From positions 1-23,916 of IMG/VR virus record IMGVR_UViG_3300007276_000306: a stretch of DNA of 23,916 bases; one strand, given 5' to 3'. The translations under genes were made by a program, and so were the position numbers. Each line of letters opens with the position of its first letter. Position 1 is the stretch's first letter. The notes under the pieces were generated by a model. That model worked only from the letters and a program-made list of their open reading frames with translations. It was not told where the DNA came from and searched no databases. This stretch comes from a virus. This document shows, piece by piece, positions 1 to 14,631 of the stretch.

Positions 1-410
1 GCATTTTGGTCTAGGGTAAGGTCGTTAGTGTCAGTGACAGTAACGTCTTGGTCTCCAGAATCCAACAAGGCATGGGCTACTACTACATTGCGAGTTGTGT
101 TATACAACCCAGCATACCTAGCAACTAGAGAACCGCCAGTGGCTGTCCATACAAGTTGAGTGGCACTGGTAAATGTAAATACACCAGCTAGTTGTGAGCC
201 AGTGCAAGTCAGGACTTGGCCTCCTGTAGTGTACCCCAGACCGTTGGCTACTTCGCCAGTTACCGAACCAGTAGCTACTACTGAAGTTGTTGCTATGTTA
301 CTGGCACTCGTCAGGAGAACTATTTTAAACACGTCAGTGTCTATGTCCCAGTTTCCACTGTGCGTTTCAAGATTTAATGTGTCGTGCTTGACCCAGATAT
401 CACCGGCCAT
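1..410 (-). CDS. Hypothetical phage structural protein, 3' end outside the window
   Basis: An open frame begins with ATG at 410 and runs without a stop past the left edge, so about 136 residues are visible. The start follows a GGAG ribosome site at about 415-419 that overlaps the TAG stop of the gene before it. The protein opens MAGDIWVKHDTLNLETHSGN and is rich in Thr, Val and Ala with alternating hydrophobic residues, suggesting beta structure. The early stretch WDIDTDVFKIVLLTSAS resembles the opening of small phage virion proteins that begin with an LDTDTFKVALL-like segment, but I cannot assign a named family. It is the last visible member of the tail cassette, directly after the 24-residue-repeat protein. 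It is read as a virion protein from position and composition only. Confidence 0.75.
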   Translation of the reverse strand, partial: MAGDIWVKHDTLNLETHSGNWDIDTDVFKIVLLTSASNIATTSVVATGSVTGEVANGLGYTTGGQVLTCTGSQLAGVFTFTSATQLVWTATGGSLVARYAGLYNTTRNVVVAHALLDSGDQDVTVTDTNDLTLDQN

Positions 411-419: not shown

Positions 420-1637
420 CTACTTAATAATGTTTAGAGTTCTGTTCTCTCTAAGTATGTTGTTAGTCCTGTTCTCCTTTAAAGCAAAGAGGGTTCGGGA
501 CGGATGGCCGAATGCTATTAAAGATCCGGTATTGAATACTGTTGGTGCTAACCCAGTTAGGTTTATAGATGCTGTACCTATTTCAGAGTACACCCTCTTT
601 GTTACATTAACTACTATTGGGGAAGTAGTGACAGCTATCTGTGCAACACCTAGAGTCACAGGTACATTGGCCGTGTATACAACCTCGACCTCTTTCCCAG
701 ACAGAGCTATTGAGCCAGCACCGATAGATACACTAACTCCACCGTTGGCTGACACTAGTTGTTGTTTACCCTCAACCAGTATATCCCCAGTACCCACAGT
801 CACAAACTTGTGATCCTCTGCGTACACTTCAAGCTGCTTGCCAGATAGGTTTATCTCGCCCAGCCCCAGTTGCAGAGTGACATGTTCAGTCTTCTGGATC
901 TGTATTTGCTTACCAGACACAGTTAAATTTGAAACTCCCAGTCTGATCCTTTTGCTAGCGTCTGCTGATACTTCTATAGCCTGTCCAGTTAAAGACAAAG
1001 ATGCAGTTCCTAGCTCTACTTGTTTGTGATCTGTCTCAGACACACCAAGTGCAAATCCAACTGTGTTGATAGCGCAAGTGCCAAAGACTACTCGCTGGTG
1101 GTCTGATACACTGACACTACTAAGGAGTCCAGAGAAGTTCAGTGCTCCAGTGTTTAAAGTTACACTCTTGTGATCTGATGTCAGTACTGATTGTGCTTGG
1201 CCAGATACAGATAGACTACCAACCCCGAGCACTACAGACTTGTTATCTGACAGCGCTACTGAAGGTGCGTATCCGACTAGCGAAAGGGATCCAGTGTTTA
1301 GTGTTACATCTACATTGGAAGTGGTGGACACACTTACACCTACAGCATAGCCAGCTTGGGCAATGCTTCCAACGCCAAGTGTCACACTTATGTTGTTGCT
1401 CAGGCTCACACCTACAGCATAGCCAGTTTGGGAGATACTCCCAGTGGCAAACTCTACGCTTATACCGGTTGAAAATGGTACGGTTACTTCTTCAACGAGG
1501 GCTAGGCTGTCGCCTTCTACAGCGTCTACTGTGGTGACTCGGTACCTATACGTGCCATCAGCTACACCTGTATCTACGTAGGTTACATCAGTACCTTGCC
1601 CTTCGTATGGTCGAGTTATTATGGTTATATATGCCAT
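420..1637 (-). CDS. Repeat-rich tail/fibre-like structural protein
   Basis: This 405-residue protein has two clear parts. Residues 13-50 (TYVDTGVADGTYRYRVTTVD) look like the second half of a fibronectin type III domain; the first half is missing. Residues 60 to about 367 are about 13 tandem repeats of mostly 24 residues with the pattern V-x-L-G-x-G-S-I-x-x-x-G-x-x-x-x-V, the GSLSLTGYAP type of repeat seen in phage tail proteins. The C-terminus has a doubled ENRTxNI motif, also seen in phage structural proteins. No catalytic motif is visible. The ATG overlaps the TAA of the preceding gene by one base (TAATG) and its own ribosome site is weak, so translation probably depends on reinitiation. 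A fibre or tail surface protein is likely; the receptor is unknown. Confidence 0.9.
   Translation of the reverse strand: MAYITIITRPYEGQGTDVTYVDTGVADGTYRYRVTTVDAVEGDSLALVEEVTVPFSTGISVEFATGSISQTGYAVGVSLSNNISVTLGVGSIAQAGYAVGVSVSTTSNVDVTLNTGSLSLVGYAPSVALSDNKSVVLGVGSLSVSGQAQSVLTSDHKSVTLNTGALNFSGLLSSVSVSDHQRVVFGTCAINTVGFALGVSETDHKQVELGTASLSLTGQAIEVSADASKRIRLGVSNLTVSGKQIQIQKTEHVTLQLGLGEINLSGKQLEVYAEDHKFVTVGTGDILVEGKQQLVSANGGVSVSIGAGSIALSGKEVEVVYTANVPVTLGVAQIAVTTSPIVVNVTKRVYSEIGTASINLTGLAPTVFNTGSLIAFGHPSRTLFALKENRTNNILRENRTLNIIK
537..1460 (-). repeat. Coding repeat, about 13 units of roughly 72 bp
   Basis: Within the fibre-like gene, units begin at about residues 60, 84, 110, 134, 158, 182, 206, 230, 254, 278, 302, 326 and 349. 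Most are exactly 24 residues (72 bp); the second has 26 and the last two are shorter. The Gly near position 13 and hydrophobic positions are kept while DNA has diverged. The SDHK-type unit ending leaves a recurring cttgtgatc on the plus strand. Confidence 0.85.
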
Positions 1638-2293
1638 TAGGTAGTCACCGCCTCAACATAGCTCAGGTGGCCTGAGTTATTGTTTATATTGTAAGACCGC
1701 AATCTTATGTATGTCCCTGTGTTTGCTGTATCTTGTAGTGTAGTTGATAACGCAGGTGCACCTGGAAAGCTTGCCGTAGCCTCTTGCCCTAATACAGAAA
1801 ACGTCAAATCACCTGCATAGAGGTTTCCCATAATACCCAATGCCCTAACTACATTTGTCCCAGCAGTAACCTCCCGAATTGAAAAAGTATTCTGACTGCT
1901 GTTGGCAATGTAGTGCTGGGCATAGGCGTGGTTCGAACCATCCTGATACCGCAGGTACACAAAGACGGGCGAGTTTGTAGCGTTAGTAAGTATGCCCACT
2001 GTCGCGGCAATATTCTGTTGCTCCAGATCAAACTTGGCGTCCATGTCATTGCCCTGACTTCCTCCAGACCCCAACACGTTTCCAGATCGCTTGTATGCAC
2101 TAAACGAGGAGCCTGCTTCCCAAACGTTACCTGTAGTTGTCGAAGTTGTCGGGGCATCTCCATCAATGTTACCTGTTGAGCCTGATGTAAAATCATCGCG
2201 CAATATGACTTCGCCAATCTTTTCCCGCTCGATGCGGGTTTCAGTTGCGGTTACTGCATTGTTATCCCAAGTTAGTCTAATGTCTGTTGTCAT
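1637..2293 (-). CDS. Lectin-like structural protein with partial fibronectin III start
   Basis: This is a 218-residue protein of the tail cassette. Residues 3-23 (DIRLTWDNNAVTATETRIER) read as the B and C strands of a fibronectin type III domain, but the rest of that domain is absent. From about residue 29 (ILRDDFTSGSTGNIDG) to the end it looks like a concanavalin/LamG-type beta sandwich: a DDF opening, aromatic and Gly positions, YLRYQDGSNHAYAQHY, then a C-terminal strand ending SYVEAVTT. Such domains in phage tails bind glycans; that role is inferred. It starts in an ATGA overlap with the gene before it and ends in a TAATG junction with the repeat protein, so all three are probably co-translated. 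I see no enzyme active site. Confidence 0.85.
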   Translation of the reverse strand: MTTDIRLTWDNNAVTATETRIEREKIGEVILRDDFTSGSTGNIDGDAPTTSTTTGNVWEAGSSFSAYKRSGNVLGSGGSQGNDMDAKFDLEQQNIAATVGILTNATNSPVFVYLRYQDGSNHAYAQHYIANSSQNTFSIREVTAGTNVVRALGIMGNLYAGDLTFSVLGQEATASFPGAPALSTTLQDTANTGTYIRLRSYNINNNSGHLSYVEAVTT

Positions 2294-2544
2294 AACATAG
2301 ACCTCGTTGCTGGCAATATTGTGAAGTTTACATCTGCCTCAACTGCGTCTAGTGCAGCAGTGCTGGCAACAACCCGAACAACAAACTGGTTTGGATTGTT
2401 GGGCAAGCCGAGTGCCATAGACTGCACTGTTATGTCTTGAAAGGATTGAAGAGGGTGGTAGACCGACACAGCGGGGTAGGCAGAAGTTTCGCCGTTCTCG
2501 TCAGTTACGTTCTCCCACCAAGTTAGTATGTCGGAAGTTTCCAT
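2290..2544 (-). CDS. Small tail-cassette protein, paralogue A
   Basis: The 84-residue protein starts METSDILTWW at 2544, one base after the stop of the gene before it. A start further upstream, at 2613, is open but would overlap that gene deeply, so I prefer 2544. Its C-terminal half (LPNNPNQFVVRVVA, then AVEADVNFTILPATR) matches the 97-residue protein at 2749-3042 (LPTAPNNFICRVIA, AADADYTLLPNSR), and the N-terminal Trp and PxxxxY positions also line up. The two are clearly paralogues. No known family is recognised. The gene ends in an ATGA overlap with the lectin-like gene. A virion accessory or assembly role is inferred from position only. Confidence 0.75.
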   Translation of the reverse strand: METSDILTWWENVTDENGETSAYPAVSVYHPLQSFQDITVQSMALGLPNNPNQFVVRVVASTAALDAVEADVNFTILPATRSML

Positions 2545-2545
2545 T

Positions 2546-2749
2546 TTAAGCCCTTGGCGCGCTAGCGCAGAATTGACGCATCGCCTCGTGAAGCTCTGCC
2601 CATGTGCGACCATCTACAGTTGGCCCGATTGCTTGGTTAAGCTGACCCATGTTCCAGATAGGAATATTGTCGGCTCCGCGCATTTTCATAATGGAATTGC
2701 GATAAGCGACCCATTCATTTTGTTTTGGTATGTCTGTTAGTTCAGCCAT
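2546..2749 (-). CDS. Small tail-cassette protein, 67 aa
   Basis: The protein begins MAELTDIPKQNEWVAYRNSI at 2749 and ends at 2546. The ATG overlaps the TAA of the upstream gene by one base (TAATG); a longer reading from 2878 would run through that gene and gives a Cys/Arg-rich sequence typical of a shadow frame, so the short start is chosen. It is mostly helical in appearance, with several Trp and Met residues, and has no recognised domain. It sits exactly between the two paralogous genes at 2290-2544 and 2749-3042. Function unknown; a structural or chaperone role is possible. Confidence 0.65.
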   Translation of the reverse strand: MAELTDIPKQNEWVAYRNSIMKMRGADNIPIWNMGQLNQAIGPTVDGRTWAELHEAMRQFCASAPRA

Positions 2750-3042
2750 TATAGACTCTCCAGCGGAAATACCGCTTCTTCTGGTTCGACGTACTCCGAA
2801 CGTGAGTTGGGGAGCAACGTGTAGTCTGCGTCCGCCGCAATTAAATCCATCACAGCAGCTTCTGCAATAACTCGACATATAAAATTATTGGGCGCTGTTG
2901 GTAGATGTGAGGCAGCTTGCCCTGTTGTGTCGTCAAAGCCACAATCGTACTTAAGTGCAATGCTCGGCCACATTGAAAACGTACCCTCACCTTGGGGATC
3001 ATGAGAAACCCAAGGGGTAAGAAATTCTGCTTGTTCCATCAT
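2749..3042 (-). CDS. Small tail-cassette protein, paralogue B
   Basis: This 97-residue protein begins MMEQAEFLTPWVSHDPQGEG and ends in an acidic tail (YVEPEEAVFPLESL). The ATG at 3042 forms an ATGA overlap with the stop of the 231-residue gene and has GGAG about 10 bases upstream. The second Met (3039) is slightly further from that site. Residues 50-80 match the 84-residue protein two genes downstream, so this is a duplicated gene with one unrelated gene between the copies. No known domain is recognised. Its place in the fibre cassette suggests a virion component or assembly factor. Confidence 0.75.
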   Translation of the reverse strand: MMEQAEFLTPWVSHDPQGEGTFSMWPSIALKYDCGFDDTTGQAASHLPTAPNNFICRVIAEAAVMDLIAADADYTLLPNSRSEYVEPEEAVFPLESL

Positions 3043-3734
3043 TCGTAAGTGTCTCCTATATATATCCCGCCTTCACCCGTTAACGTATTCCCGTTATCGT
3101 CAGTAATGACTGGGTTAACTGTTCCCGAGGCATAGGCGTCAAGGGGAGTTCCCGCCAGAAGCTGAATTTGAGTGACGTATGACACTCTTGAATATCCACG
3201 CGTACAAACGCCTTGTCCAGAATAGAGTTTTGCTTGTCCATTCGCTAGCAAAGGCGTTCTAATTGTTTGACTGCTTTGGCTTCGAGTTACGAAATTAGCA
3301 GATGGGTCATCGCGCTCTTGAAGATATGCTTTTGTATTATAGGCAAAGTTCCCTAGCAACTCGTGCCAAGTATTCGGGAGCATCTGGCTGGCTGTAGGTG
3401 TCCAGTACTGTGATCCTCCACCTGTATTGTAATAGCGCCAACTAAAAGCTATGCGGCCGTCAGCAGGCAGCCACAAAGAGCACGAGTAGTTGCTCAAATC
3501 TGTTTTAACAAACCCCGCACATATCGGATTTCTAACTGTTACACCCCAATCTCCAACGCCACCCCATCTAAGCTGTGCCGCGTTTAAAGTTCCAGTGCTG
3601 AAGTACGGAGTACTTACACAGAAAGTTTCCTCATAGAAATCATCGGTAGTATCCACGCCTTGTCCCATCAGTCCGTGCTGAGTGGGTATAGCTTCTTCAA
3701 ACCGCAGATTGGTTGGTGCATCTGGTATAGCCAT
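3039..3734 (-). CDS. Putative tail structural protein, lectin-like
   Basis: This 231-residue protein opens MAIPDAPTNLRFEEA, which is the characteristic first strand of a fibronectin type III domain, but no further part of that domain follows. The remainder is rich in aromatic, Ser, Thr and Gly residues (for example AFSWRYYNTGGGSQYWTP) in an alternating beta pattern like a jelly-roll or lectin module. The end (NPVITDDNGNTLTGEGG) is Asn/Gly/Asp rich. A GGGAG site precedes the ATG at 3734. It is the first gene of the fibre cassette, two bases after the 61-residue gene. Host-surface binding is an inference from domain type and position. Confidence 0.8.
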   Translation of the reverse strand: MAIPDAPTNLRFEEAIPTQHGLMGQGVDTTDDFYEETFCVSTPYFSTGTLNAAQLRWGGVGDWGVTVRNPICAGFVKTDLSNYSCSLWLPADGRIAFSWRYYNTGGGSQYWTPTASQMLPNTWHELLGNFAYNTKAYLQERDDPSANFVTRSQSSQTIRTPLLANGQAKLYSGQGVCTRGYSRVSYVTQIQLLAGTPLDAYASGTVNPVITDDNGNTLTGEGGIYIGDTYE

Positions 3735-3736
3735 AG

Positions 3737-3922
3737 TTAACTCCCGTCAGAACACCAGCCGTTAGGCTTTACGATGTAATAGTCTTCCTTAGTTTCAATT
3801 TCCAAAGTCACACCGCGCTTGTCCATCATGGAGACTTCAGCTACAACGTGACCGTCATTATCAAATATCCTAAACGAGTGGTTATCTTCAGACCTCCCGT
3901 CTAGTCGAGTCTTTAAACCCAT
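3737..3922 (-). CDS. Hypothetical protein, 61 aa
   Basis: The short protein begins MGLKTRLDGRSEDNHSFRIF and has an alternating hydrophobic pattern (RIFDNDGHVVAEV, then GVTLEIETKEDYYIVKPNGW) that suggests a small beta sheet. A good AGGAG site overlaps the TAG stop of the terminase gene, so the two are tightly linked. I do not recognise the family. It lies between packaging and tail genes, so either a small virion part or a regulator is possible. Confidence 0.7.
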   Translation of the reverse strand: MGLKTRLDGRSEDNHSFRIFDNDGHVVAEVSMMDKRGVTLEIETKEDYYIVKPNGWCSDGS

Positions 3923-3933: not shown

Positions 3934-5529
3934 CTATCCCCAGTTCTCGTAAGACATAAGCAGACCGGCGAAGACCACATCAACAGCGTCAGAGACATTG
4001 TCAGCGAAGTCATCATTGCCAGTAGCGCTCCCTTGGTCAGACATCCCCAAGAGTTCTCGCCTACAATGCTGGTAGTGTTCGTGGTGCTTCGGTAAAAGTA
4101 TTCGACCTTCACGGAAGTACGGTATTGTGTTTAGAAAGCGACTGAACTTATCATTGTTCGAGGTTCCGTCACGCTTGACTGGCTTAACATTAACTGTGCC
4201 GTCCCTAAGGAACTGCTGGTTAAGGTGCATGCCAGATGATTTGTCTTCCATGTAGAAACCCTTGGGCTTCCACGTAGGCTTGTTCATATCGAATACGTTG
4301 TGCTTCTTCCAGAACTCCCGCATAGCTACAATCAACTCAGGGACTTCCCATTTTTCTACAACTATATCCAAAAGAATGAGCTTCTTACAAGTAGTAAAGC
4401 CCCAGAAACATGCAACTGTGTAGTCAGAGTAAGACTTAGTAGTCGCGGCAGTGTCTGCGGTGATGAAGGTGTAGGCAATCTTGTACTCGTCAGCATCTAC
4501 ATAGCTGGCAATGTCATCTTCCTTGAGTGCCGAATTACCCTTACCCACTGGAGTCCCTTGGTACTGGGAGTAGAATGTGTAAGGGTCATGGTGAGCTAAC
4601 CCGAGTAGGGTATCTACGCTCTTTCGGACAGCCCAGAAGGATGAAACGGATTGCATCTTACCTTCGAACTCTTTCTCCTCGTACTTGCGAGTCTTGCTAG
4701 TGGGGAGGTTGTAAGTGATAGGCTCAACATTGGTGTACCCAAGTTTATCTATCTGGTTCTGGTACCACTCTTTAGAACCTGTATAGCCCTCGACAATGAT
4801 GCCAGGGATACTCAGCCATTTGTACACGTCAGCAGTGTTGCCCTTCATTAGATAACCACAGAGGTCGTCGGCGTGAAGTCTCTGCATGATGATACACAGT
4901 GGAGTTGTCTCAGTCGCCAGTCGTGAGAGTAGCGTGTTACTGAAACGGTTATTGATCTTGTCACGCTCGGTGGGAGAGTTAGCATCGTCAGGCTTGATAA
5001 CATCGTCGATAGCCATCAGCCCAGCGAACCCTTCCACGAGTGCTCCACACCCTTTACCAGTCATCTTCCCTGTAGTAGGGATCGCGTGGAGCACTCCAGC
5101 ACTCATGGTACCAAGACGTTCAACCGATTTCTTGTTCTGGTCAATGACCACATCGGGAAAGACTCGTTCGAAGTCTGGGCTTATCATAATGGTTCTTATG
5201 TAGCCAGAGCTTTCGGCGAGCACGTCTTTATTAAACCCAGTGAGGATTGTCTGCCCACTAGGGTTTCTGCACCACGCGAACAAGGGAAGGAATTGACTCA
5301 AGATAAGAGTCTTCCCAGCTCGTGGTGGTATGTTGATGATCATGCGATTACACTTCTGCTCGATGAGAAGCTGGATAGCCTCAAAGAGAACATCGTAGTA
5401 GTCCACATGCATCATCTTCTGTCCTGTCAGAATCTTGAATACAAAATAACTGAAGGCTCTAAAATCTTTAAGGAGGTAGTCCCTAAGAGCATCAACTTCA
5501 TGATCTTCTAATTTTGAAATATAGCTCAT
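3934..5529 (-). CDS. terL: Terminase large subunit (DNA packaging ATPase/nuclease)
   Basis: The 531-residue protein packages the phage genome into the prohead at the portal, using ATP, and cuts concatemeric DNA. The ATPase half shows Walker A at residues 68-74 (PPRAGKT), Walker B at 171-176 (LMAIDD) and the coupling motif QRLHADDL at 216-223, typical of the Terminase_6 group. The C-terminal RNase H-like nuclease has acidic residues at D359 (ITADTAAT), E428 (FYMEDKSSG) and the DDFADNVSDAVD cluster at 506-517. Length is normal for the family. A GGGAG site precedes the ATG at 5529. The probable small subunit is two genes upstream, separated by the ribonucleotide reductase and a small membrane protein, an unusual spacing. 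Confidence 0.95.
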   Translation of the reverse strand: MSYISKLEDHEVDALRDYLLKDFRAFSYFVFKILTGQKMMHVDYYDVLFEAIQLLIEQKCNRMIINIPPRAGKTLILSQFLPLFAWCRNPSGQTILTGFNKDVLAESSGYIRTIMISPDFERVFPDVVIDQNKKSVERLGTMSAGVLHAIPTTGKMTGKGCGALVEGFAGLMAIDDVIKPDDANSPTERDKINNRFSNTLLSRLATETTPLCIIMQRLHADDLCGYLMKGNTADVYKWLSIPGIIVEGYTGSKEWYQNQIDKLGYTNVEPITYNLPTSKTRKYEEKEFEGKMQSVSSFWAVRKSVDTLLGLAHHDPYTFYSQYQGTPVGKGNSALKEDDIASYVDADEYKIAYTFITADTAATTKSYSDYTVACFWGFTTCKKLILLDIVVEKWEVPELIVAMREFWKKHNVFDMNKPTWKPKGFYMEDKSSGMHLNQQFLRDGTVNVKPVKRDGTSNNDKFSRFLNTIPYFREGRILLPKHHEHYQHCRRELLGMSDQGSATGNDDFADNVSDAVDVVFAGLLMSYENWG

Positions 5530-5547: not shown

Positions 5548-5826
5548 TTAAATGATCGTCAGTACTGCTGCGACCAGACCCAGTAGCACGTTAGCGCATA
5601 GGGATAACATCAACACATGACCAGCAAGGTAGCTGGCATCTTTGTAGTTACCATCACGGCAACTCTCTACGCAAACATTCGTCGCGTTATGTGTGGATGG
5701 CTTCTTTTTCAAACGGCTCAGCGCATCTTTAATCGCGTAAGCCTCTCGCCACCTAATGATGGCATTGTTCAGTTTGGCTATGTCTCTCCGTAGCCCGTTC
5801 TTTCCTGACAAATCTCTTAATTTCAT
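5548..5826 (-). CDS. Small membrane protein, holin-like candidate
   Basis: The 92-residue protein has a basic, helical N-terminal part (residues 1-45, ending ALSRLKKK), a short linker with two Cys, and one long hydrophobic segment from about residue 68 to the end (HVLMLSLCANVLLGLVAAVL). A single C-terminal membrane helix with a basic cytoplasmic head fits a tail-anchored protein, and small phage holins can look like this, but no family match is recognised. It lies between the reductase and the large terminase, downstream of hairpin 5846-5861. The ribosome site is modest (GAG about 7 bases before ATG). Confidence 0.65.
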   Translation of the reverse strand: MKLRDLSGKNGLRRDIAKLNNAIIRWREAYAIKDALSRLKKKPSTHNATNVCVESCRDGNYKDASYLAGHVLMLSLCANVLLGLVAAVLTII

Positions 5827-5834
5827 AGTGTTCT

Positions 5835-5861
5835 CAAATAAAGAACCCCTCTTGCGAGGGG
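5835..5861 (-). terminator. Hairpin terminator after nrdJ
   Basis: On the minus strand, CCCCTC-GCAA-GAGGGG (5861-5846) forms a six-pair GC stem closed by a GNRA-type GCAA loop, then TTCTTTATTT. It begins seven bases after the reductase stop. The U-rich tail is interrupted, so termination may be partial, and an RNA-processing site is an alternative. The GNRA loop exists only in the minus-strand transcript. Confidence 0.65.
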
Positions 5862-5867
5862 CTTAGT

Positions 5868-7505
5868 TTATATTCCGCACACACCACTTGGACAAGCAGC
5901 ATCTCCGTTCTCTTCAAACACTTGACCAATACTTTCCTTAGCCTCTTTGTAAGAGCACTGAGTAAGTGGTTGGCCACCGCGAGCACCATCAGGGTAGACG
6001 GTGAATCCACGGAGTCTTGGAGCGTACTTCGCCAGCGTTCTGGCAAATGGCTCGACTGTGTCTTCGTTGTTGTCTTCGGATCCCCAAGCAGGCATGTTGA
6101 TAGTACTGCTTATCGCCATGTCCACATAATCCTGAACATCAGCTTGGAATGAAAGTCGGCGCTCGAAGTCAGTTACCAGATCCTGTGAGGTCTCGATCTT
6201 TTCTGGATCAAGGTCATAGTCTTGGATTAAGTCCTCGGCTGTAGCGTCAACTACGTACTCATACTTCCAATCTTTGGCACCAACCAGATACCTACGCTTA
6301 TAAGCAACAGCATATAATGGCTCAATACCAGTAGTAGTGCCTGCCAAGATTCCAATCGTCCCCGTAGGTGCAATCGCACGGTAAGCCACAGGCCGAGAAA
6401 TGCTAAGAGCATCACAAAGGGTGTTAGCAGCATATTCAGATTCCTCTCTGTACACTTCCATCCATCGACGGAGTTCATCATTCATCTCATAACGGTAGCC
6501 ACGTTTCAGCAACCATTCGTGCATGCCCATCAGACCAAGTCCTAGTCTACGGTTCTTAGCTCGGACTTCATAGATCTTTTCATACGGCAGGTCAGCACCG
6601 ATAGTTCCACATACAAGGAACATGACACCAAGACGAACAACCTCTCTAAATTCTTCAATGGTTTCGATAGCACCCATATTAACAGAACCAAGATTACATA
6701 CGTCTGAATCATCTTCGGAAGTAACTTCTGTGCAAGCATTACGTAGTGTCTCCTTCTCCTTTGCGCCAAAGTTGAAACTCATTCCAGGTTCACCCGTCCT
6801 TAGGGCTTGTCTGCAATTAGTCACGAAAGTCTCTGGCAATGCACCTCCTTCTAACTGGTGGAGGAATGCGTTATCGTAGTTCAGACTTATATTAGTCTGG
6901 TCTAGTGGTGCATGGTAGTTATAGTTCTCTGCTTTGGCATCCTTGATTGAATACCCTTTCGTGATTTGCATGTTCTCCCAATCTTTGCAGATTAAGAATT
7001 CTCCAGCATCACCATGCTGCCAGTTAAGGCTAGCGTAGATAGCTGAACGTCGAGACCCACCTTGCTGCACGTTACGCCCTACTTCGTTCATAGAGTACAT
7101 AAGTGGTAGTGGCCCAGAAGCTACGCCTCCAGTTCTACCAAGCGGCGATCCATTGGGTCTAAAGATAGAGTAATCACCTCCTATTCCCCCGCCAGCCATG
7201 AGACAGTCACTTCCGCGTTTCAACAGGTTTCCCCATTCTTCGCGAGTGTCTTCCTCACCTTTTAGCAGGTAGCAGTTATTCCAGTATGAAGCCTGACGAC
7301 CAGCGTAGTAAATGTACCGGCCTCCTGACATGAACTTAAACTTACTCATGTGCTTGAGCAGCTGGCTTGCATCAGCCACAGGCAACAAGCCATGCGTTAC
7401 ATCATGCACTATATCTACACACTTCTCATACCAAGTTTGGTCTTCTGTGAGTGCGTACTTTCCTTTAAAGATTGTTTCCCCAAAGCTGTTTCTAAATTCT
7501 GACAT
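5868..7505 (-). CDS. nrdJ: Class II (adenosylcobalamin-dependent) ribonucleotide reductase
   Basis: The enzyme reduces ribonucleotides to deoxyribonucleotides for phage DNA synthesis, using a B12-derived thiyl radical. Residues line up with the family: first redox Cys C78 (NNCYLL), radical motif N256-A-C258-T-E260, second redox Cys C270 (CNLGSVN), the phosphate-binding loop at 379-386 (APTGTIGI), and a C-terminal reductant pair C538/C543 (CPSGVCGI). The class I features (a two-Tyr radical path and a small beta subunit) are not seen and no nrdB lies in the window. At 545 residues it is short, and it begins directly in the catalytic region without an N-terminal ATP-cone, so allosteric activity control is probably absent. 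The ribosome site is weak. It lies between probable small and large terminase genes. Confidence 0.93.
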   Translation of the reverse strand: MSEFRNSFGETIFKGKYALTEDQTWYEKCVDIVHDVTHGLLPVADASQLLKHMSKFKFMSGGRYIYYAGRQASYWNNCYLLKGEEDTREEWGNLLKRGSDCLMAGGGIGGDYSIFRPNGSPLGRTGGVASGPLPLMYSMNEVGRNVQQGGSRRSAIYASLNWQHGDAGEFLICKDWENMQITKGYSIKDAKAENYNYHAPLDQTNISLNYDNAFLHQLEGGALPETFVTNCRQALRTGEPGMSFNFGAKEKETLRNACTEVTSEDDSDVCNLGSVNMGAIETIEEFREVVRLGVMFLVCGTIGADLPYEKIYEVRAKNRRLGLGLMGMHEWLLKRGYRYEMNDELRRWMEVYREESEYAANTLCDALSISRPVAYRAIAPTGTIGILAGTTTGIEPLYAVAYKRRYLVGAKDWKYEYVVDATAEDLIQDYDLDPEKIETSQDLVTDFERRLSFQADVQDYVDMAISSTINMPAWGSEDNNEDTVEPFARTLAKYAPRLRGFTVYPDGARGGQPLTQCSYKEAKESIGQVFEENGDAACPSGVCGI

Positions 7506-7522
7506 TGTTATAGTCTACCACA

Positions 7523-7966
7523 TTAACTGTTTAGGAATCCAGCCAGCACCTCGGCTGCGTCTTCCTTTGATGCTATCAGCACTGTGGAGCTGGGAGACAT
7601 GGACATCCCTTTTCCCTCAGCGATCAAGCGTGAAATTTCTTTACTGAGTTCAATGACCATCTTGGGATCAGCTGGCAGCTCGATAGTAATACCATCGACT
7701 TCCATCTCACCACCAAAGGCTGCCTCTTGTAGCTCAGCCATCTTAAGTATTCGTTCGGCAATATGCAGACCCTTCTCCTGCATTTCTTCAGCTAGGAGTT
7801 CGTGATAGCGTTGTCGAATCTCTGGGTGTTTCTGTACCACGGCGCGGAGGCTCATGGCATTATATTCGATTGAGTCGAGTCTGGAAGCCTTTCCCAGATC
7901 GCCACGGTATATGAGCATAGCTCGGGCGATTATCTCGAACTCGTCTGAGATTACTAAGTCAGACAT
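7523..7966 (-). CDS. terS: Probable terminase small subunit
   Basis: This 147-residue protein is largely helical. Residues 10-65 (ARAMLIYRGDLGKAS, then RAVVQKHPEIRQRYHELLAEE) fit a DNA-binding helical region followed by a long oligomerisation helix. A short beta piece follows (EVDGITIELPADP), then another helix and a mobile tail. Size and layout match small terminase subunits, which bind pac/cos DNA as a ring and hand it to the large subunit, but no diagnostic motif exists, so the call rests on shape and on lying upstream of terL. A strong AAGGAG site precedes the ATG. It is the first gene after the RNA polymerase, behind a 166-base noncoding leader. An unrelated DNA-binding regulator is the alternative. 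Confidence 0.5.
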   Translation of the reverse strand: MSDLVISDEFEIIARAMLIYRGDLGKASRLDSIEYNAMSLRAVVQKHPEIRQRYHELLAEEMQEKGLHIAERILKMAELQEAAFGGEMEVDGITIELPADPKMVIELSKEISRLIAEGKGMSMSPSSTVLIASKEDAAEVLAGFLNS

Positions 7967-8132
7967 AATTAGATACTCCTTAGAGTTTTGAATAACAAAG
8001 GGCGCTAGATAGAATACTATTTAGTTGCCCCTCCAAACCTCCCCGTAAATCCAGAGGCCGACCCACCTCCCCCTAAGTATGGCGGGGTGGTAGCGGTAGG
8101 TCGTTCCTCCTTTAGCACTGGGTCTAGGGCGA
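7967..8132 (-). other. Noncoding leader between RNA polymerase and small terminase
   Basis: This is one of the few real gaps in the window. The minus strand is strikingly G-rich in its middle (8041-8080 reads as runs of G) and can fold: CCACC-CC (8090-8084) pairs with GG-(A)-GGTGG (8070-8063). A perfect AAAGGAGGAA Shine-Dalgarno sequence lies at 8113-8104 with no ATG, GTG or TTG at a usable distance. An AT-rich stretch (ACTAAATAGTATTCTATCT) lies nearer the terminase gene and could hold a phage promoter; no known consensus is met. A late promoter or a leader RNA is plausible but unproven. Confidence 0.4.
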
Positions 8133-9980
8133 TTATTTGAAGAAAAGCCTCAGACCCCGCATAGACTCTGGGTTCCAGCTCCCGAAAGAGGGTGGATCTT
8201 GGAGGTCTACGTCATACTTATGAGACCAGTATGAGCGTAGGTCTGAGAGGTAGGTACCTGAGTAAAGCTCGATGAAGGTATCCACAATGATCCTATATAG
8301 CTCATCCCTGTAGTTAGCATGGGTGGCAAAAGAGTCATGAATGAATATCATCGGGTAGCCTAGCTCCTTCAAACGCCTAGCTACCATTCTCAGGTGGGTG
8401 GCATCAAGTCCGTGTACGATGTTAGGGGAGATGGCGAAGGCATGCTTCTGGGTATTGACCTTCTCACCTGAGAAATCCTTAACCTCCACAAATACTTCAT
8501 CACCATTGTCCAGCATGCACGTAACTTGCTTGCGCTCACCTTTCACCTTCCGTTGAGAACAGAGGAAGCCATCAGGAGTATACCATGTTATCTCCACATT
8601 GCCCTTACTAGCTATAGCCCGAGCACTAGCAGTGAGCCAGTCGACCACTTCCTTGAGTGGGCCGAGCGTTAGGTTCAGCTGCATGTACAAGTCAGCACCC
8701 ATTCGTGCTGTCCTCTTCATGGGGAGGCCATCTCCTACGATCTTGTAGGCTCTATCCTCCACGTCCCAGACGCTCTTAGCACCGTAGAGCCTATGCATCC
8801 ACGCTGTTGAGGTCATAACAGTTGCAGAGTAGCCCCAGGTCATGACGGGGATCTTAGCTGCTTTCCTCGTAGCATACACACGGTCTCCTACGTCCTCCAT
8901 AGAATACTTCCAGTCTTCAGCAACCTTCTCATAGATGTCGAGGTCAGCCTCTTCTTCGTGCATTCCGATGTGTCGCGTGAGGGCGTCTGAGCGGCTCAGA
9001 GCGGTCAAGTGCTGTAGCCCTGAGCATCGCCCGTCCAGAGGTGGGAAAGCTGGCAGCGAGCACTGGGGATCGTCCACGTACATTGATATCATCTTTGCAG
9101 TGGACATATAGCAGTAGGGCTTATCCGCACACATCCACTCACCCACGGTTCCAACAGGATCACGAGCGTGCTCGATCATCTTCTGGATCCCCCACGGCTG
9201 TTCTGAGTAGCCCTTGGCCATGTCCACCAGTGCATCAAAGCCACCGCCGGTAAGGGGTATGGCGAAGGTAGGGATGATCATTGCTTTCTCGTGGTCAGCG
9301 CCCTGTGGAGTCACACCACATGTAGTATCGACATACATTCTGCTGCGGCTGCATAGGAAGTACGGAAACATGAACCTTTGCCCAGCTAGGTGTTCTGCTG
9401 AATTCATAGACCTCTCGTACATGAATGCGTCTGAGCACTTATCAAACTCTGGCGGGAACTGCTTCACGAGATCGACCACGAACTGATTGATCTCGAAGGT
9501 TTCCTTGGCCATGTCTTGAGCTATGGCAGACACAATCTTGTTACGCTCCCCACTGATACCACCACGTACAGGTACGGACGGCATAGCATCTCCCTTACTG
9601 CGAGGGTAGGAGATGACAGTCTGGGGAGCACAGTCCAGCTCCAGAGCCAGTTTAGTGAACTTTCTGGTTGGCAGGACGACACGCTCGTCGTAACCTCGCT
9701 CGAACTTTATGTAGCCATCTGCTTCCATCTCCCCCAAAAATCGGAGAACTACGTTGAACGGGTCATCGGACTCGAGCATCTTCCTAGCTATCCGTGGCAC
9801 TACTGTGTGCAGAGGGAGGTCGAAGTGGAGCGGGAGAGAGTACAGACAGTGAGTGTAGGCACGTAGCCAGCGGTCTCCCTTCTGAATCTTCCAGCGGTAG
9901 TCGGTGATGTTCTCAGGTCGACTGAACCCTTTAGCCTTCTTCGGTGTTGGCAATACAATGCCGCCGTCGAGATGAATCAT
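8133..9980 (-). CDS. T7-like single-subunit RNA polymerase, compact form
   Basis: The 615-residue enzyme transcribes phage genes from phage promoters. Catalytic elements of the T7 family are all present: motif A with D316 (LDGRCSGLQHL), the O-helix with K376 and Y384 (KIPVMTWGYSA, matching T7 K631 and Y639), the APN-type segment at 517-525 (ISPNIVHGL), and motif C with H548-D549 (FIHDSFAT, matching T7 D812). The region between about 465 and 515 matches the promoter specificity loop. T7 RNA polymerase has 883 residues and its motif A Asp is at 537, so about 200 residues of the N-terminal promoter-binding/RNA-exit domain are missing or reduced. The start at 9980 has a textbook AAGGAGG site, so this is not a wrong start. 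It lies after the replication genes rather than early as in T7. Confidence 0.93.
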   Translation of the reverse strand: MIHLDGGIVLPTPKKAKGFSRPENITDYRWKIQKGDRWLRAYTHCLYSLPLHFDLPLHTVVPRIARKMLESDDPFNVVLRFLGEMEADGYIKFERGYDERVVLPTRKFTKLALELDCAPQTVISYPRSKGDAMPSVPVRGGISGERNKIVSAIAQDMAKETFEINQFVVDLVKQFPPEFDKCSDAFMYERSMNSAEHLAGQRFMFPYFLCSRSRMYVDTTCGVTPQGADHEKAMIIPTFAIPLTGGGFDALVDMAKGYSEQPWGIQKMIEHARDPVGTVGEWMCADKPYCYMSTAKMISMYVDDPQCSLPAFPPLDGRCSGLQHLTALSRSDALTRHIGMHEEEADLDIYEKVAEDWKYSMEDVGDRVYATRKAAKIPVMTWGYSATVMTSTAWMHRLYGAKSVWDVEDRAYKIVGDGLPMKRTARMGADLYMQLNLTLGPLKEVVDWLTASARAIASKGNVEITWYTPDGFLCSQRKVKGERKQVTCMLDNGDEVFVEVKDFSGEKVNTQKHAFAISPNIVHGLDATHLRMVARRLKELGYPMIFIHDSFATHANYRDELYRIIVDTFIELYSGTYLSDLRSYWSHKYDVDLQDPPSFGSWNPESMRGLRLFFK

Positions 9981-9992
9981 ATTGCCTCCTTG

Positions 9993-10235
9993 TTATATAT
10001 CTAGTTCTTCCAGCTTATCAACCATTGACTCGACGCACATGTCGATCTTGCGCTCGAGTATAAAGTCTGCGAGTTCAAATGGGCTTACGATAACAGCACA
10101 TCCGATACGCTGACCAAGTTCTGTTTGGCAGAACATGGAAAACTCTATCCCGTTTGTTGAAGCTCGTATATGGATATCAGGTAGGAACCCACCAGCTTCG
10201 AGCATGCGCTCCTGGATGTCAGTTGTAGATATCAT
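9993..10235 (-). CDS. Hypothetical protein, 80 aa
   Basis: The protein begins MISTTDIQERMLEAGGF and looks like a small alpha/beta fold: a helix, two strands (DIHIRAST and GIEFSMFCQT), then VIVSPFELADFILERK and a C-terminal helix rich in Met, Asp and Glu. No family is recognised. It starts in an ATGA overlap with the ligase stop and ends 12 bases before the RNA polymerase, so it is co-translated with ligase and may be expressed along with the polymerase. A small regulator of one of these neighbours is possible but there is no direct evidence. Confidence 0.75.
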   Translation of the reverse strand: MISTTDIQERMLEAGGFLPDIHIRASTNGIEFSMFCQTELGQRIGCAVIVSPFELADFILERKIDMCVESMVDKLEELDI

Positions 10236-11179
10236 ACGTCACTCACCTCTTTGTCAAACCGCATCTCACCAACCTTAGGCAGGCGCAAGACACCCTTGCT
10301 AGACTCCTCCAGTGCGTACACTTGGAAGACATAGCCCAGTGGGTAGTATGGGCTGACTGGATCTTTGAGCTGAATGCTGTTGAACATCTGCTCAGCCATA
10401 TCGTGAGTCCAGCCTTTGCCGAGCATGGCTTTGATCTCGCGGCCACCCTTCCAGCTGAAGAGCAGGTTAGCTATCTTGCCAGTGTACTTGCCAGTGCCTT
10501 CCTCGTAACCAATGCACTTCAGGTCATAGTCACAACCACGGACCTTCTTCATCACGCGCCAGCCTTTGTGACCAGCTTCCCAGCCAGCATCAGCAGAGCG
10601 TATGACGATACCTTCACCGCCAGCATCCACTACCCATCCCAGAAGCCGGTCCAGTTCTGCTTCGTTGGAGATAGCATAGCCAAGAACATGAGCTGTAGGA
10701 AGGCGGCTGTTAAGGTCTTGCCAGCGCTGACGGAATCCTCGCTCGGACTTACCGGCGATGAACTCTTCTAAGGTAACGAAGTCAAAGAAAGCTATCCGTC
10801 CATTCTCAGCCAGCATGTCGGCACGCTCATCATCCAGAGCCTCGACACGGTTGGGGTTGATCATGCCAGATAATACTTCCAGACTAACGGGATCGCAGCA
10901 GGTCTCACCCATGTAAACTCCTGGGCGTAGGTCGTACTTGACCAAGATATTATTCATGTTGGTCAGGGCTTTGCCTGTACGTGAGAATGCCCACATAGCA
11001 CTGCTCTCTGCTACCACGAGCAAGGTGCACACTCCGTCTTCCTTCTTCTGCACTGCAAAAGGAGCAGTCTTCTTACTGTCAGGTACTTCATCAAAGTGCT
11101 TCACGAGCTGAGTTACCTTATTGCTCAACTTGCGGTGCTCGGCTTTAAGTCCGAGGAATTCAAATATATTGATACTCAT
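10232..11179 (-). CDS. ATP-dependent DNA ligase
   Basis: The enzyme seals nicks in phage DNA with ATP during replication and recombination. Nucleotidyltransferase motifs occur in order: motif I K46-E-D-G (AMP-accepting Lys), motif Ia SRTG at 66-69, the conserved Glu in VYMGET (E92), motif III IAFFDFV at 129-135, motif IV GGEGIVIR at 187-194, and motif V with K211-K212. An OB-fold domain follows (CIGYEEGTGKYTGKIANLLF). At 315 residues it is the small T7-type ligase (T7 gp1.3 has 359) and has no extra DNA-binding domain. GGAG precedes the ATG at 11179, and a hairpin with a U-rich tail sits just upstream. Its stop overlaps the 80-residue gene. Confidence 0.93.
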   Translation of the reverse strand: MSINIFEFLGLKAEHRKLSNKVTQLVKHFDEVPDSKKTAPFAVQKKEDGVCTLLVVAESSAMWAFSRTGKALTNMNNILVKYDLRPGVYMGETCCDPVSLEVLSGMINPNRVEALDDERADMLAENGRIAFFDFVTLEEFIAGKSERGFRQRWQDLNSRLPTAHVLGYAISNEAELDRLLGWVVDAGGEGIVIRSADAGWEAGHKGWRVMKKVRGCDYDLKCIGYEEGTGKYTGKIANLLFSWKGGREIKAMLGKGWTHDMAEQMFNSIQLKDPVSPYYPLGYVFQVYALEESSKGVLRLPKVGEMRFDKEVSDV

Positions 11180-11189
11180 TATGTCTCTC

Positions 11190-11228
11190 CAAATAAAGGA
11201 GGTGCCGCAGATTCTTCTACGACACCTC
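11190..11228 (-). terminator. Hairpin upstream of DNA ligase
   Basis: The minus strand gives GAGGTGTCG (11228-11220) pairing with CGGCACCTC (11207-11199), nine pairs including one G·U that exists only in the minus transcript; AGA/TCT in the loop can extend it. CTTTATTT follows. It starts just after the stop at 11233. It probably reduces read-through into ligase or is an RNase cleavage site. Confidence 0.6.
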
Positions 11229-11232
11229 AGTC

Positions 11233-11415
11233 TTAATGCAGGCGGTTTTCGTGCCTGTGATTCGTAACCACCGCAGCAATTATCTCAGCTGCACTGGCGA
11301 ACACACGGCCCATGCCTTCTAATACATCTATCCTGTCACCAACACCCTCGGACTTCATATCCTCTAGGCATTGGTGAACAAGATCAAGTGCATCATCTTC
11401 CTCAGTCCTACCCAT
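11233..11415 (-). CDS. Hypothetical protein, 60 aa
   Basis: The ATG at 11415 gives a 60-residue protein (MGRTEEDDALDLVHQCLEDM) that is helical, acidic at the start and basic with several His at the end (TNHRHENRLH). A TTG at 11439 would add eight residues but has no ribosome site. The first 8 bases overlap the end of the 57-residue gene, so coupling is likely. No family is recognised. It is the last gene before hairpin 11199-11228. Confidence 0.6.
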   Translation of the reverse strand: MGRTEEDDALDLVHQCLEDMKSEGVGDRIDVLEGMGRVFASAAEIIAAVVTNHRHENRLH

Positions 11416-11581
11416 CGGTGAGGGCTGTTGCCGCAGCAATCAGGTCAGCTACCGTGTTCTCAGGTGTCATGCCCAGCTTCTCGCCAACCTCTACAACCAC
11501 TTGCACGAGCATGTTGCGCTCGTCAGTCAAGTCGAGAACTCTGGCTTTGAGGGTATTAACCTCTTCTTGTAAATCAGTCAT
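11408..11581 (-). CDS. Hypothetical protein, 57 aa
   Basis: A 57-residue frame runs from ATG at 11581 to TAG at 11408. An AGGAG site overlaps the TAG stop of the metallophosphoesterase gene and is well spaced from the ATG. The N-terminal half has a heptad-like pattern (LQEEVNTLKARVLDLTDERN) that suggests a short coiled coil, so it may oligomerise. The C-terminal half is Ala-rich and helical. No family is recognised. Confidence 0.65.
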   Translation of the reverse strand: MTDLQEEVNTLKARVLDLTDERNMLVQVVVEVGEKLGMTPENTVADLIAAATALTDG

Positions 11582-11589
11582 AAGTACTC

Positions 11590-12351
11590 CTAATACATTT
11601 GTAACAGACGCTCGAGGCTAACGAAATTACAATCCCAGTCATCGAATCCATATCTGTTAATGAAGTGTTTGAGGTGCACGAACCCACGTATCTCAGTGTT
11701 GTTAGCACCTCGGTAGCCTTCGTCATGCATGTAAAATGAACCAGCGCAAATACCAAAGTGTGGCATGCCTTGCAAGTTCTGTCTCCGTGCGTACTGGAAC
11801 TGTTGCTGGTGTCCGTGCACAAACGAGTGCGGGAACTTGTTCAGCTTGTTCTCCATACTGCCGCCTACAGGTCGCCCAGACATTGGGTTCTCCATGTAGT
11901 GGTTGAAACAGATACCGTCCAGCCACAGTGGGTCACACATCTGGTTAACAGTCCAACCTTGATCCTCGACAAAGCGATCCAGATCGAAGCAGCCTTCCAG
12001 CACTGGGTGAGAGTCGATGAAGCGGTTCAGCCTGTTCTCATGGTTGCCCATAAGGAAATGCTTGTCAGGCTTGTACTGCTTCTTCTTACCACTGGCATTC
12101 TTCTGGTCAGTCTTCTTCATAATCATTCGGAAGGCTTCAAAGCCACCCTCCAGATCATCGTACAAGCGCCGACCTTCAGACTCCTTGGCACTGGCATAGC
12201 TGCTCAGGCTTGGGAAGTCCCAGTGGTCGCCAATGTGCACGATCTTCTGCGGCTTGTGCTCCCAGATGTACTCGGACGCAGCACTGAAGTGAGCCAGTGG
12301 TGAGTCTTTGTCAACCTGTGTGTCAGCCAGAACAATAATATCTTTGTTCAT
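11590..12351 (-). CDS. Calcineurin-like metallophosphoesterase, variant metal site
   Basis: This 253-residue protein has the frame of the calcineurin-like phosphoesterase family: GDHWD at 41-45, GNHEN at 102-106, a His at 151 and GHQQQ at 180-184. Two usual ligands differ: the first motif is D10-T-Q12 where the family has DxH, and the last is GHQQ where the family has GHxH. The bimetal centre may therefore be altered, hold one metal, or have a changed substrate. Phage members of this family act on phosphodiesters or on DNA repair intermediates, but the substrate here is unknown. The start is an ATGA overlap with the endonuclease VII-like gene, and that gene's final codons contain its AGGAGG ribosome site. 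Its neighbours are all DNA-processing enzymes. Confidence 0.85.
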   Translation of the reverse strand: MNKDIIVLADTQVDKDSPLAHFSAASEYIWEHKPQKIVHIGDHWDFPSLSSYASAKESEGRRLYDDLEGGFEAFRMIMKKTDQKNASGKKKQYKPDKHFLMGNHENRLNRFIDSHPVLEGCFDLDRFVEDQGWTVNQMCDPLWLDGICFNHYMENPMSGRPVGGSMENKLNKFPHSFVHGHQQQFQYARRQNLQGMPHFGICAGSFYMHDEGYRGANNTEIRGFVHLKHFINRYGFDDWDCNFVSLERLLQMY

Positions 12352-12713
12352 TTAGCCCTCCTTTTAACGGGTTTCTGTTTGCCAGTCTTCACATCGAAGC
12401 TGGGGTGTATTAGTCCGGACGGATTCTCTCTGTGGTGATCGAGATAGTCGGCTAACTTTCGGAGCCAGTTGGCTGGGTGAGTGTACGCCATGTTGCTCTT
12501 CGGAGTACGGAACTTCAGTGCAGCCTTAACCTTACCTTCCCCAACGTTGCAGGACTGGCAGAGTGTAGCACGTACATGTCCAGTGTCATGGCAATGGTCT
12601 AGGGCAGGCGTACCAATGGTCAACCTACTATTGCAGATAGGGCAGATATGTTTCTGCTTAGCTGATAGTGCTACCCTCGTAGGGCGTATTGAGTCGTTAG
12701 TCAATTGTCGCAC
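12348..12713 (-). CDS. Endonuclease VII-like Holliday-junction resolvase
   Basis: The 121-residue protein carries the His-Me finger endonuclease VII signature: a CPIC pair at C24/C27, the catalytic LDHCHDTGHVRATLC block with D39, H40 and H42, then the second zinc pair C52/C55 followed by NVGEGK. It probably resolves branched DNA during replication and packaging, filling the job of T7 gp3, which belongs to a different family. The start is GTG at 12713: an AGGAG site lies about six bases upstream, inside the end of the exonuclease gene, so the genes overlap by 17 bases. It ends in an ATGA overlap with the metallophosphoesterase. The C-terminus is basic (KPVKRRAK), fitting DNA binding. Confidence 0.9.
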   Translation of the reverse strand: MRQLTNDSIRPTRVALSAKQKHICPICNSRLTIGTPALDHCHDTGHVRATLCQSCNVGEGKVKAALKFRTPKSNMAYTHPANWLRKLADYLDHHRENPSGLIHPSFDVKTGKQKPVKRRAK

Positions 12714-13587
12714 AAATCTCTCCTGTTAGGCAGTTCATATACTCGTCCCTTGCATCCAGAGTCCAGCGCTTGATCCAATCACCTTGCTTGTAGCGAACCA
12801 TGAACAGCAGGTTTGCTTGCTCTTCCATGCGCTCTCGCCACTCGTCACCGAACTCTAACTCGTAGAAGTCCTCGACAACTGCTTGTGCTGCATCAAGCTC
12901 AAGACCAATCAATGCTTTGCATGCTTGCTTGTGACCTACACCCTTGCGGCGAATGTATTCTTGGCCAGCCTTAGCACCAGTCTTCCAGACAGCAGTAGCC
13001 CTGTGCCCACAACCAACTATGTAGTCAGCTCCGTCACCAACGAGTAGCTGGTAAAGGAAACCAATGGCTCCAGTGAAGTACACCTTCTTGCCTCGGTCTT
13101 CGAGCACACCATAAGGAGTAATCTCTATGACCTTCTGGCTATTGTGATCCAGGTGCTTGCCAGGAACTTGACGTAAGTCTTTGTCCTCACTCCAGATAAT
13201 TGTATCATTAGTCTGGTGCATGGCTAGCAAATCATCAGCTTCCATACCCATCTCAAAATGAGTGTTGAGGTTATCGACAGCCCAGCGTTTAGCCCAAGCT
13301 AGGTTCACTGGTCTCTCGACACCTATACGGTTGGCTTTGTAGTCATCAACGATGAAGTCTCTGAAGTTAACCTTGGGAGTCACGAACATAATATAGCTCG
13401 TAGCTCCCGCAGCTTCACAATAGTCACTCACCTTCTTCTTGATGTGCTTAGTGATAAGACGCTTCTGGGTATCTGAATCATCAGCGTTGAAGATACAACA
13501 CCCAGAGTACACGATCAAGTCTCCGTCGATGAGCAACGTCAGCTCTTCCTCCACCCAGTCCTCTAATCCTAAATCAGATAGTGACAT
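12697..13587 (-). CDS. FEN-family 5'-3' exonuclease (T7 gp6-like)
   Basis: The 296-residue protein is a structure-specific 5' nuclease that removes RNA primers and degrades host DNA in T7-type phages. Acidic metal-binding clusters are in the expected order: D21 and D23 (LLIDGDLIVY), the basic DDYKANR patch at 81-87, E116-A-D-D119, D135/D137 (SEDKDL) and D185/D188 (LVGDGADY). The helical-hairpin-like segment after 190 (GVGHKQACKALIG) fits the DNA-binding H3TH of this family. Its length is close to T7 gp6 (300). An AAGGAG site precedes the ATG. It lies between the SSB and resolvase genes, as expected for a replication cluster. Confidence 0.9.
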   Translation of the reverse strand: MSLSDLGLEDWVEEELTLLIDGDLIVYSGCCIFNADDSDTQKRLITKHIKKKVSDYCEAAGATSYIMFVTPKVNFRDFIVDDYKANRIGVERPVNLAWAKRWAVDNLNTHFEMGMEADDLLAMHQTNDTIIWSEDKDLRQVPGKHLDHNSQKVIEITPYGVLEDRGKKVYFTGAIGFLYQLLVGDGADYIVGCGHRATAVWKTGAKAGQEYIRRKGVGHKQACKALIGLELDAAQAVVEDFYELEFGDEWRERMEEQANLLFMVRYKQGDWIKRWTLDARDEYMNCLTGEICATID

Positions 13588-13598
13588 GGTGGTGCTCC

Positions 13599-14285
13599 TT
13601 AGAATGCAATGTCTTGATCCATCTCGACAACGGCTGCTTCTTCAACAGCTTGCTCGCCTTCCAGAACAACGTCAGTGTCATCCAGATCTTCCAGCCCAAG
13701 GCTATCCAGATCTTCCTCAATTTCGCCGCCAGTGTAAGGCACGAGGTCGGTGATGCACAACAGGTGCGGGTACAAATACAAGCCGTTCTTACCATCGACT
13801 GGACGGAACTGGAAGTGGCCTTTGGTGCCATTGCCAATCGCTGTGTCTTGATCGACAGTCAGCCCAGCGTGATCCTGAACCTTGCCCTTGATACCAATTT
13901 GCTTAATAGGGAATGACTCGCGGCGTACACCGTTCGCGTCAGGCTTACCGACCAATACAGTCTGGCTAAACTTAACCAGAACCATCTCGTCTTCGAGGTC
14001 ATCAGCTGAGAGGTAGTCATACTTCTCGAGGATGTCATCCTTCTCCCACTCCTTCGCGTTCGCCAAGTTCTTGGCACCGGTGAAGACTTTCTTCAGCTCC
14101 TTCTTGAAGCGTGACTCTGAGATGAGAATCTTAATCTCATACGAGTGGAACTCCATCGGGCTGTCCGACTGGGGAGGCTTCTTGTCCGTGTTCAGCTGCT
14201 CAATTGCGCGAGAGACTGAGCTAAACATAAAGATCACGTCTTTCATAGTGACCACGGTTGTTGCTAACTTTTCTGCTTCTGCCAT
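13599..14285 (-). CDS. Single-stranded DNA-binding protein (T7 gp2.5-like)
   Basis: The 228-residue protein probably coats ssDNA and recruits polymerase and primase. The central part (residues 45-180) has an OB-fold-like strand pattern (EIKILISES, VLVKFSQTVLVG, IGIKGKVQD). The C-terminal 45 residues are strongly acidic and end in DQDIAF, the acidic tail plus terminal Phe that is the hallmark of phage SSBs such as gp2.5 (T7 ends in EDEF). Sequence identity to gp2.5 is too low to see by eye, so the call rests on the tail, size and position between polymerase and exonuclease. AAGGAG precedes the ATG with good spacing. Confidence 0.75.
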   Translation of the reverse strand: MAEAEKLATTVVTMKDVIFMFSSVSRAIEQLNTDKKPPQSDSPMEFHSYEIKILISESRFKKELKKVFTGAKNLANAKEWEKDDILEKYDYLSADDLEDEMVLVKFSQTVLVGKPDANGVRRESFPIKQIGIKGKVQDHAGLTVDQDTAIGNGTKGHFQFRPVDGKNGLYLYPHLLCITDLVPYTGGEIEEDLDSLGLEDLDDTDVVLEGEQAVEEAAVVEMDQDIAF

Positions 14286-14310
14286 GTTATGGCTCCTTAG
14301 TAGTTTTAGA

Positions 14311-14631
14311 TTATAGATCTGCTGGAGTATACGTATAACCAGCTCTCTTTTCTAGGATGGTTTGAAGATTTGCCATTGCTCTCCAAGCCACTTTCACATC
14401 ATGGTCAAACCCATCGTCGTCTACTGTTCCGCACTCGGATAGATGACGGGTCAACGCATCAAGGTGATCGTTCGACTTTCCCTTGCTCCAATGCAATGGC
14501 AAGCCAGGATTGTGTTTCTCGTTGGCATAGAGTGATAGCCTAGCTACCTCTGCCATAGCCATTGGGAAATATTTTATGAATCCGCTATAGATCGGTATCT
14601 GCTTGCGGAGGTCTGAATCTTGCTCTAACAT
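14311..14631 (-). CDS. dATP/dGTP diphosphohydrolase-like protein (DUF5664-type)
   Basis: From ATG at 14631 the protein has 106 residues. The pattern KYFPMAMAEVARLSLYANEKH, then a Trp-containing segment, HLDALTRHLSECG, and a Asp/His run DDDGFDHDVKVAWRAMANL matches the all-helical phage family annotated as dATP/dGTP diphosphohydrolase N-terminal domain (DUF5664). Family members are related to nucleotide pyrophosphohydrolases that adjust dNTP pools. A longer start at 14721 is open but would lie deep inside the upstream membrane-protein gene; the chosen ATG has AAAGAGG before it and still overlaps that gene by 47 bases. Only the one domain is present. Activity is inferred from the family pattern. 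It sits directly downstream of the polymerase block. Confidence 0.65.
   Translation of the reverse strand: MLEQDSDLRKQIPIYSGFIKYFPMAMAEVARLSLYANEKHNPGLPLHWSKGKSNDHLDALTRHLSECGTVDDDGFDHDVKVAWRAMANLQTILEKRAGYTYTPADL

Follow-up and report, generated by a model that had tools for sequence, protein, structure and literature searches.

In a 23,916-base genome fragment of an uncultivated phage, the whole of which is referred to here as the window, a fibronectin III (FN3) domain appears to be distributed over separate genes. Based on profile scores, the N-termini of two consecutive genes, B and C, can be assigned firmly as consecutive, non-overlapping parts of one FN3 module in transcript order. The two would thus be complementary pieces of one domain encoded by separate genes, and a third gene, A, begins with a candidate for the remaining strand. 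Taken as a whole, the locus is best explained by an FN3 module that was split by insertion and whose pieces associate into one sandwich, an explanation to which we give close to an even chance.

Organization of the locus

The phage genes of the locus lie on the minus strand. The open reading frames (ORFs) of genes A (3734-3039), B (2293-1637), and C (1637-420) were confirmed where an earlier note on this DNA had placed them, with their FN3 pieces in N-to-C order along the transcript. The features are listed below in that order.

3934..5529, minus strand: large terminase (47% to Chaseviridae, 65-75% to the related fragments L005-L013)
3737..3922, minus strand: conserved 61 aa gene, left anchor between the terminase and the variable interval (phrog_12735, E 5.5e-13)
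3039..3734, minus strand: gene A, 231 aa; putative FN3 strand A, then a body that may be concanavalin/LamG-like (ORF; Laminin_G_3 below cut-off)
3690..3725, minus strand: FN3 piece A, putative strand A, PDAPTNLRFEEA, at the gene A N-terminus (profile positions 4-11, suggestive only)
2749..3042, minus strand: small gene P1, 97 aa, paralogue of P2 (alignment, phmmer); 4-base overlap with the end of gene A
2546..2749, minus strand: small ORF, 67 aa; 1-base overlap with P1 (ORF; family search without a match)
2290..2544, minus strand: small gene P2, 84 aa if its start is at 2544; 4-base overlap with gene B (ORF, alignment)
1637..2293, minus strand: gene B, 218 aa; predicted FN3 strands B and C followed by a body of ~190 aa (ORF)
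2210..2290, minus strand: FN3 piece B, predicted strands B and C, TTDIRLTWDNNAVTATETRIEREKIGE, at the gene B N-terminus (profile positions 18-42)
420..1637, minus strand: gene C, 405 aa; predicted FN3 strands C' to G, beta repeats of ~20 residues, and a C-terminal ENRT motif (relative L098/L142)
1479..1634, minus strand: FN3 piece C, predicted strands C' to G, AYITIITRPYEGQGTDVTYVDTGVADGTYRYRVTTVDAVEGDSLALVEEVTV (AYITIITRPYEGQG...VTV), at the gene C N-terminus
423..500, minus strand: C-terminal SRTLFALKENRTNNILRENRTLNIIK motif of gene C (pattern scan of viral stretches)
3..410, minus strand: phrog_644-like gene, partner of gene C, reaching the window edge (PHROG E 3.9e-15)

Small genes had been said to lie in the gaps, and P1, the 67-codon ORF, and P2, the reading frame of which opens at 2613, were indeed found between genes A and B. 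P1 and P2, which flank the 67-codon ORF, share 38% identity in alignment (phmmer E about 1e-14). No relatives of P1 or P2 were found by alignment search in viral and genome collections, and the ORF at 2546-2749 matched no family. From 3734 to 420, each gene either overlaps the next by 1-4 bases or lies almost against it, and Shine-Dalgarno-like sites accompany most of the starts. On this arrangement, we consider that genes A to C are true separate cistrons and not the result of sequencing errors. Because of the same overlaps, the FN3 pieces would come from one mRNA, and genes A to C are probably translated together. Genes B and C overlap by a single base, and ~190 codons of other coding sequence separate their FN3 pieces.

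Because joining the pieces would give a sequence that reads as one domain, one full protein might be supposed to arise through splicing of the RNA or through translation that skips the interruptions. This is very improbable. Rfam revealed neither an intron nor any other RNA family in the window, and each interruption is open coding sequence with a stop that overlaps the next start or lies next to it; ribosome-site-like sequences are present. In addition, the first interruption contains three further small genes.

Evidence for a single FN3 domain

The pieces were scored against an FN3 profile made from 14 FN3 domains of unrelated phages, which had been found by a generic consensus. A set of 4067 ORF N-termini from loci without a known FN3 served as the background. 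When scored alone, pieces A, B, and C reached 2.6 bits (profile positions 4-11), 16.9 bits (18-42), and 13.1 bits (57-79), respectively. When joined in order, they scored 38.1 bits over positions 4-79 with small gaps, a value that applies only to the composite of three chains. Permuted joins gave 12.0 to 32.3 bits, with the top value coming from the order in which B and C stay next to each other, and none of 2000 residue shuffles of the join exceeded 11.0 bits. The N-termini of gene B (15.9 bits) and gene C (13.0 bits) were each matched by none of the 4067 background N-termini. The mechanical join of the three N-termini scored 39.1 bits over positions 4-79, whereas 20,000 random three-way joins reached 14.3 bits at most, in agreement with the earlier proposal that the joined N-termini read as one FN3 domain. 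The hallmark FN3 core residues are intact in every strand (LTW, RIER, TYVDTG, and TYRYRV).

Agreement with FN3 profiles was clear for the phage profile but not for Pfam fn3 (PF00041), which gave the ordered join 17.3 and 14.0 bits in two versions, below the gathering cut-off of 25 bits. Pfam fn3 matched no single piece, neither of the permuted joins tried, and not one alternative ordered cut of the join. A PDB search with the join returned the Fn3-like protein 3mpc (E 0.017), with an alignment continuous across the B/C junction. The failure of every single piece to reach the Pfam cut-off, together with that of the alternative cut, would be expected if three beta-rich N-termini resembled FN3 by chance. 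However, the background set contained no N-terminus equal to B or C, and the join exceeded the 20,000 random joins by 25 bits. Chance resemblance is disfavored by these controls, and we regard it as scarcely credible.

The first break falls in the A-B loop. The second lies exactly in the C-D (C-C') loop, where the slack amounts to one to two residues. Gene C had been thought to open with the D-G half only, but its piece in fact extends from C' to G; the first ten residues correspond to the C' strand, and nothing is lacking between the second and third pieces. Because this strand is present at the start of gene C, little would have been lost at either break. The ATG starts immediately precede strands B and C'. 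In the FN3 topology, the A-B loop, the C-D loop, and the C-terminal end of strand G share one pole, so that the gene C repeats and the two bodies encoded by genes A and B could exit on one side. Visual inspection showed a 5-base repeat, CATAT, at either end of the second interruption; it was rejected as lying within chance expectation.

Assignment of piece A

The claim that all three N-termini come from one FN3 held for B and C, whereas for piece A the evidence is suggestive only. The profile score of the gene A N-terminus was matched or beaten by 63 of the 4067 background N-termini, and shuffled versions of piece A reached the observed score of the join in 4 of 500 trials. Piece A raises the B and C join from 32.9 to 38.1 bits, and among 5744 ORF N-termini only one has its P-x-A-P-x-N-L motif, even in a relaxed form. 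Piece A (PDAPTNLRF) thus probably belongs to the same FN3 domain as B and C.

Alternatively, only B and C may come from one domain, and the PDAPTNL with which gene A starts may be an unrelated linker or a remnant of another FN3. Besides the 2.6-bit score of piece A and the number of background N-termini that do as well, this reading has in its favor that FN3 domains starting at strand B are common in virion proteins, so that gene B may never have had a strand A. In SPN3US-like jumbo phages (EarlPhillipIV gp146/gp147, Huxley, and Proteus phage 7) and in Bordetella phages (MW2, FP1), virion proteins likewise start at strand B, which suggests that the lack of strand A is tolerated in nature. Unlike in the window, these domains run from B to G in one chain and are not split in the C-D loop. 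We nevertheless consider the alternative unlikely, as PDAPTNL is near the strand-A consensus, is rare at N-termini, stands in the correct order, and adds 5 bits to the join, an effect equaled by only those few shuffles.

In the Erwinia phages EarlPhillipIV and Huxley and Proteus phage 7 (L137-L139), as well as in L135 and L136, neighboring virion genes were observed to start at FN3 strand B. A second split FN3 was considered for the Bordetella phages, in which the gene preceding the FN3 gene ends with PPEITGFSVAP, a possible A strand; it was rejected because shuffled sequences score about equally.

Gene A and B bodies and the family of gene C

Lectin-like modules had also been proposed for the locus. 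The body of gene A gave a weak match to Laminin_G_3 (14.6 bits against a cut-off of 27.6; E 0.036), and the body of gene B gave one to Caf1 (E 0.0086), also below the cut-off, and none to Laminin_G_3, so the lectin label is not established. PDB searches for a LamG or lectin fold with both bodies gave empty results or spurious matches. Gene B matched no clear family, and protein searches detected no relatives of genes A and B in viral contigs or phage records.

By contrast, gene C has the full build of a repeat/ENRT virion protein, with beta repeats, a C-terminal ENRT pair, and an adjacent phrog_644 gene all present. A scan for the ENRT-pair pattern yielded 29 viral stretches, many of which encode proteins whose repeats are preceded by LamG or other modules. 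Proteins of this type (L098/L142, L091, L092, L112, and others) share with gene C the beta repeats of ~20 residues and the C-terminal ENRT; at the N-terminus they carry LamG or other repeats, whereas gene C carries a partial FN3. The only clear relative of gene C itself is in L098 (extended as L142; E 1e-20), where the gene is likewise followed by a phrog_644-like gene and has a different N-terminus. From this difference, the N-terminal module of repeat/ENRT proteins is taken to be exchangeable, and in gene C it is, or was, an FN3 as judged by the profile. The gene C repeats had no match in genomes by alignment search.

The repeat/ENRT gene of L142 (5982-7079, minus strand) and its phrog_644-like neighbor form a pair that occurs in two phages with no other relationship. 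L142 also has a second gene of similar appearance farther upstream. Relatives of the phrog_644-like gene are annotated as hypothetical or as minor tail proteins in mycobacteriophages.

The terminase-portal interval in related phages

The terminase shows 46-47% identity to members of the Chaseviridae and 65-75% to nine IMG/VR fragments (L005-L013). With this terminase and a single-subunit RNA polymerase, the phage appears to be Chaseviridae-related and to lie outside the known genera, as judged on a fragment. The remainder of the window (5548-23916) looks like that of a virulent phage. The single-subunit RNA polymerase gene was identified by searching at 8133-9980, and a ribonucleotide-reductase-like gene (5868-7505) and DNA ligase-, exonuclease-, DNA polymerase-, and helicase-like genes were recognized by reading translations.

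In L005-L013, a phrog_12735 gene (46-61% identity) follows the terminase, and the portal gene is next where the contig reaches it. Between the two is a variable interval, and this is where the split-FN3 locus sits. L007 and L011 have nothing in the interval, and L006 has an unrelated gene of 480 residues. In L008 it contains a BppU_N (BppU baseplate domain) protein with fiber-like genes, in L009 eight genes that mostly overlap, and in L012 again different genes. The interval is thus a cargo spot, and the contents of L008 point to baseplate or fiber parts. As it is hypervariable in close relatives, insertion at this place is normal. These relatives resemble the window in their flanking genes, fast-changing cargo, and overlapping small genes, but, unlike the window, they have no FN3; no FN3 family was found among 50 terminase-related records either.

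At positions 9825-13591 of L009 lies a chain of small, mostly overlapping fiber-like genes. Such a chain suggests that segmented fiber proteins may be a habit of the terminase-portal locus.

Origin of the split and possible reassembly

The proposal that a fiber gene was split by module insertion fits the order of B and C, the break in the C-D loop, and the variable interval, and fits piece A less firmly. For B and C, a split through insertion is likely on the arrangement of the sequence. The FN3 module would once have been N-terminal in a repeat/ENRT virion protein, that is, gene C, and cassettes would have inserted into it within the hypervariable interval. The insert in the C-D loop would be the body of gene B; that in the A-B loop, larger and less certain, would consist of the body of gene A, P1, the 67-codon ORF, and P2. 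Each insert would have supplied its own stop and start, leaving the module as three overlapping cistrons on one mRNA. We infer both the insertion event and the ancestral unsplit state, the latter because no unsplit relative was found in the viral contigs, phage records, or genomes searched. The FN3 E-F strand signature had five matches in viral contigs, none of them split.

In the most likely view, a single FN3 sandwich would form by non-covalent association of the three N-terminal pieces and would hold A, B, and C together in one peripheral complex of the tail or fiber. One pole of the fold would bear the C-terminal exit as well as every chain break. Such reassembly is plausible because two peptides obtained by cutting FN3 in the CD loop come together again in the laboratory (PMC11666773); the same source, with reference to Dutta et al. 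2005, names this cut as the most efficient. As far as that account describes it, the engineered FN3 is likewise broken in the CD loop, as between genes B and C, into pieces of ~42 and 53 residues, similar in length to those here. It has two pieces and no insert, whereas the present case is natural and would consist of three pieces, each with another protein body attached. Reassembly from three pieces is harder than in the two-piece laboratory case. Single-sequence structure models of A and B were too poor for use (pLDDT 28 and 34). Weighing these points, we put functional reassembly in trans somewhat short of an even chance. Still more tentative is the fully specified arrangement, a natural three-piece FN3 whose translationally coupled parts (A, B-C, and C'-G) lock together in the virion and form a joint for three tail or fiber subunits, with the inserts emerging from loops.

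The main rival explanation is that the FN3 pieces are dead remnants of fiber-cassette insertion, with A, B, and C working separately and their stubs tolerated. The insertion history would account for the order and complementarity of the pieces without any function, the interval turns over fast in relatives, and the relative of gene C in L098/L142 has a different N-terminus. However, all hallmark core positions are kept in the three pieces, and an ATG stands directly before strands B and C', although a recent insertion would look alike in both respects. We regard the remnant explanation as possible but rather doubtful.

If the pieces do reassemble, phages would be able to make a heteromeric joint out of a single folded domain through gene insertion in its loops. 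Fiber subunits would then be added without linkers or chaperones, and the locus would be a natural counterpart of the laboratory split FN3. Even without reassembly, the junctions would record that fiber loci grow by insertion inside domains and not only between them.
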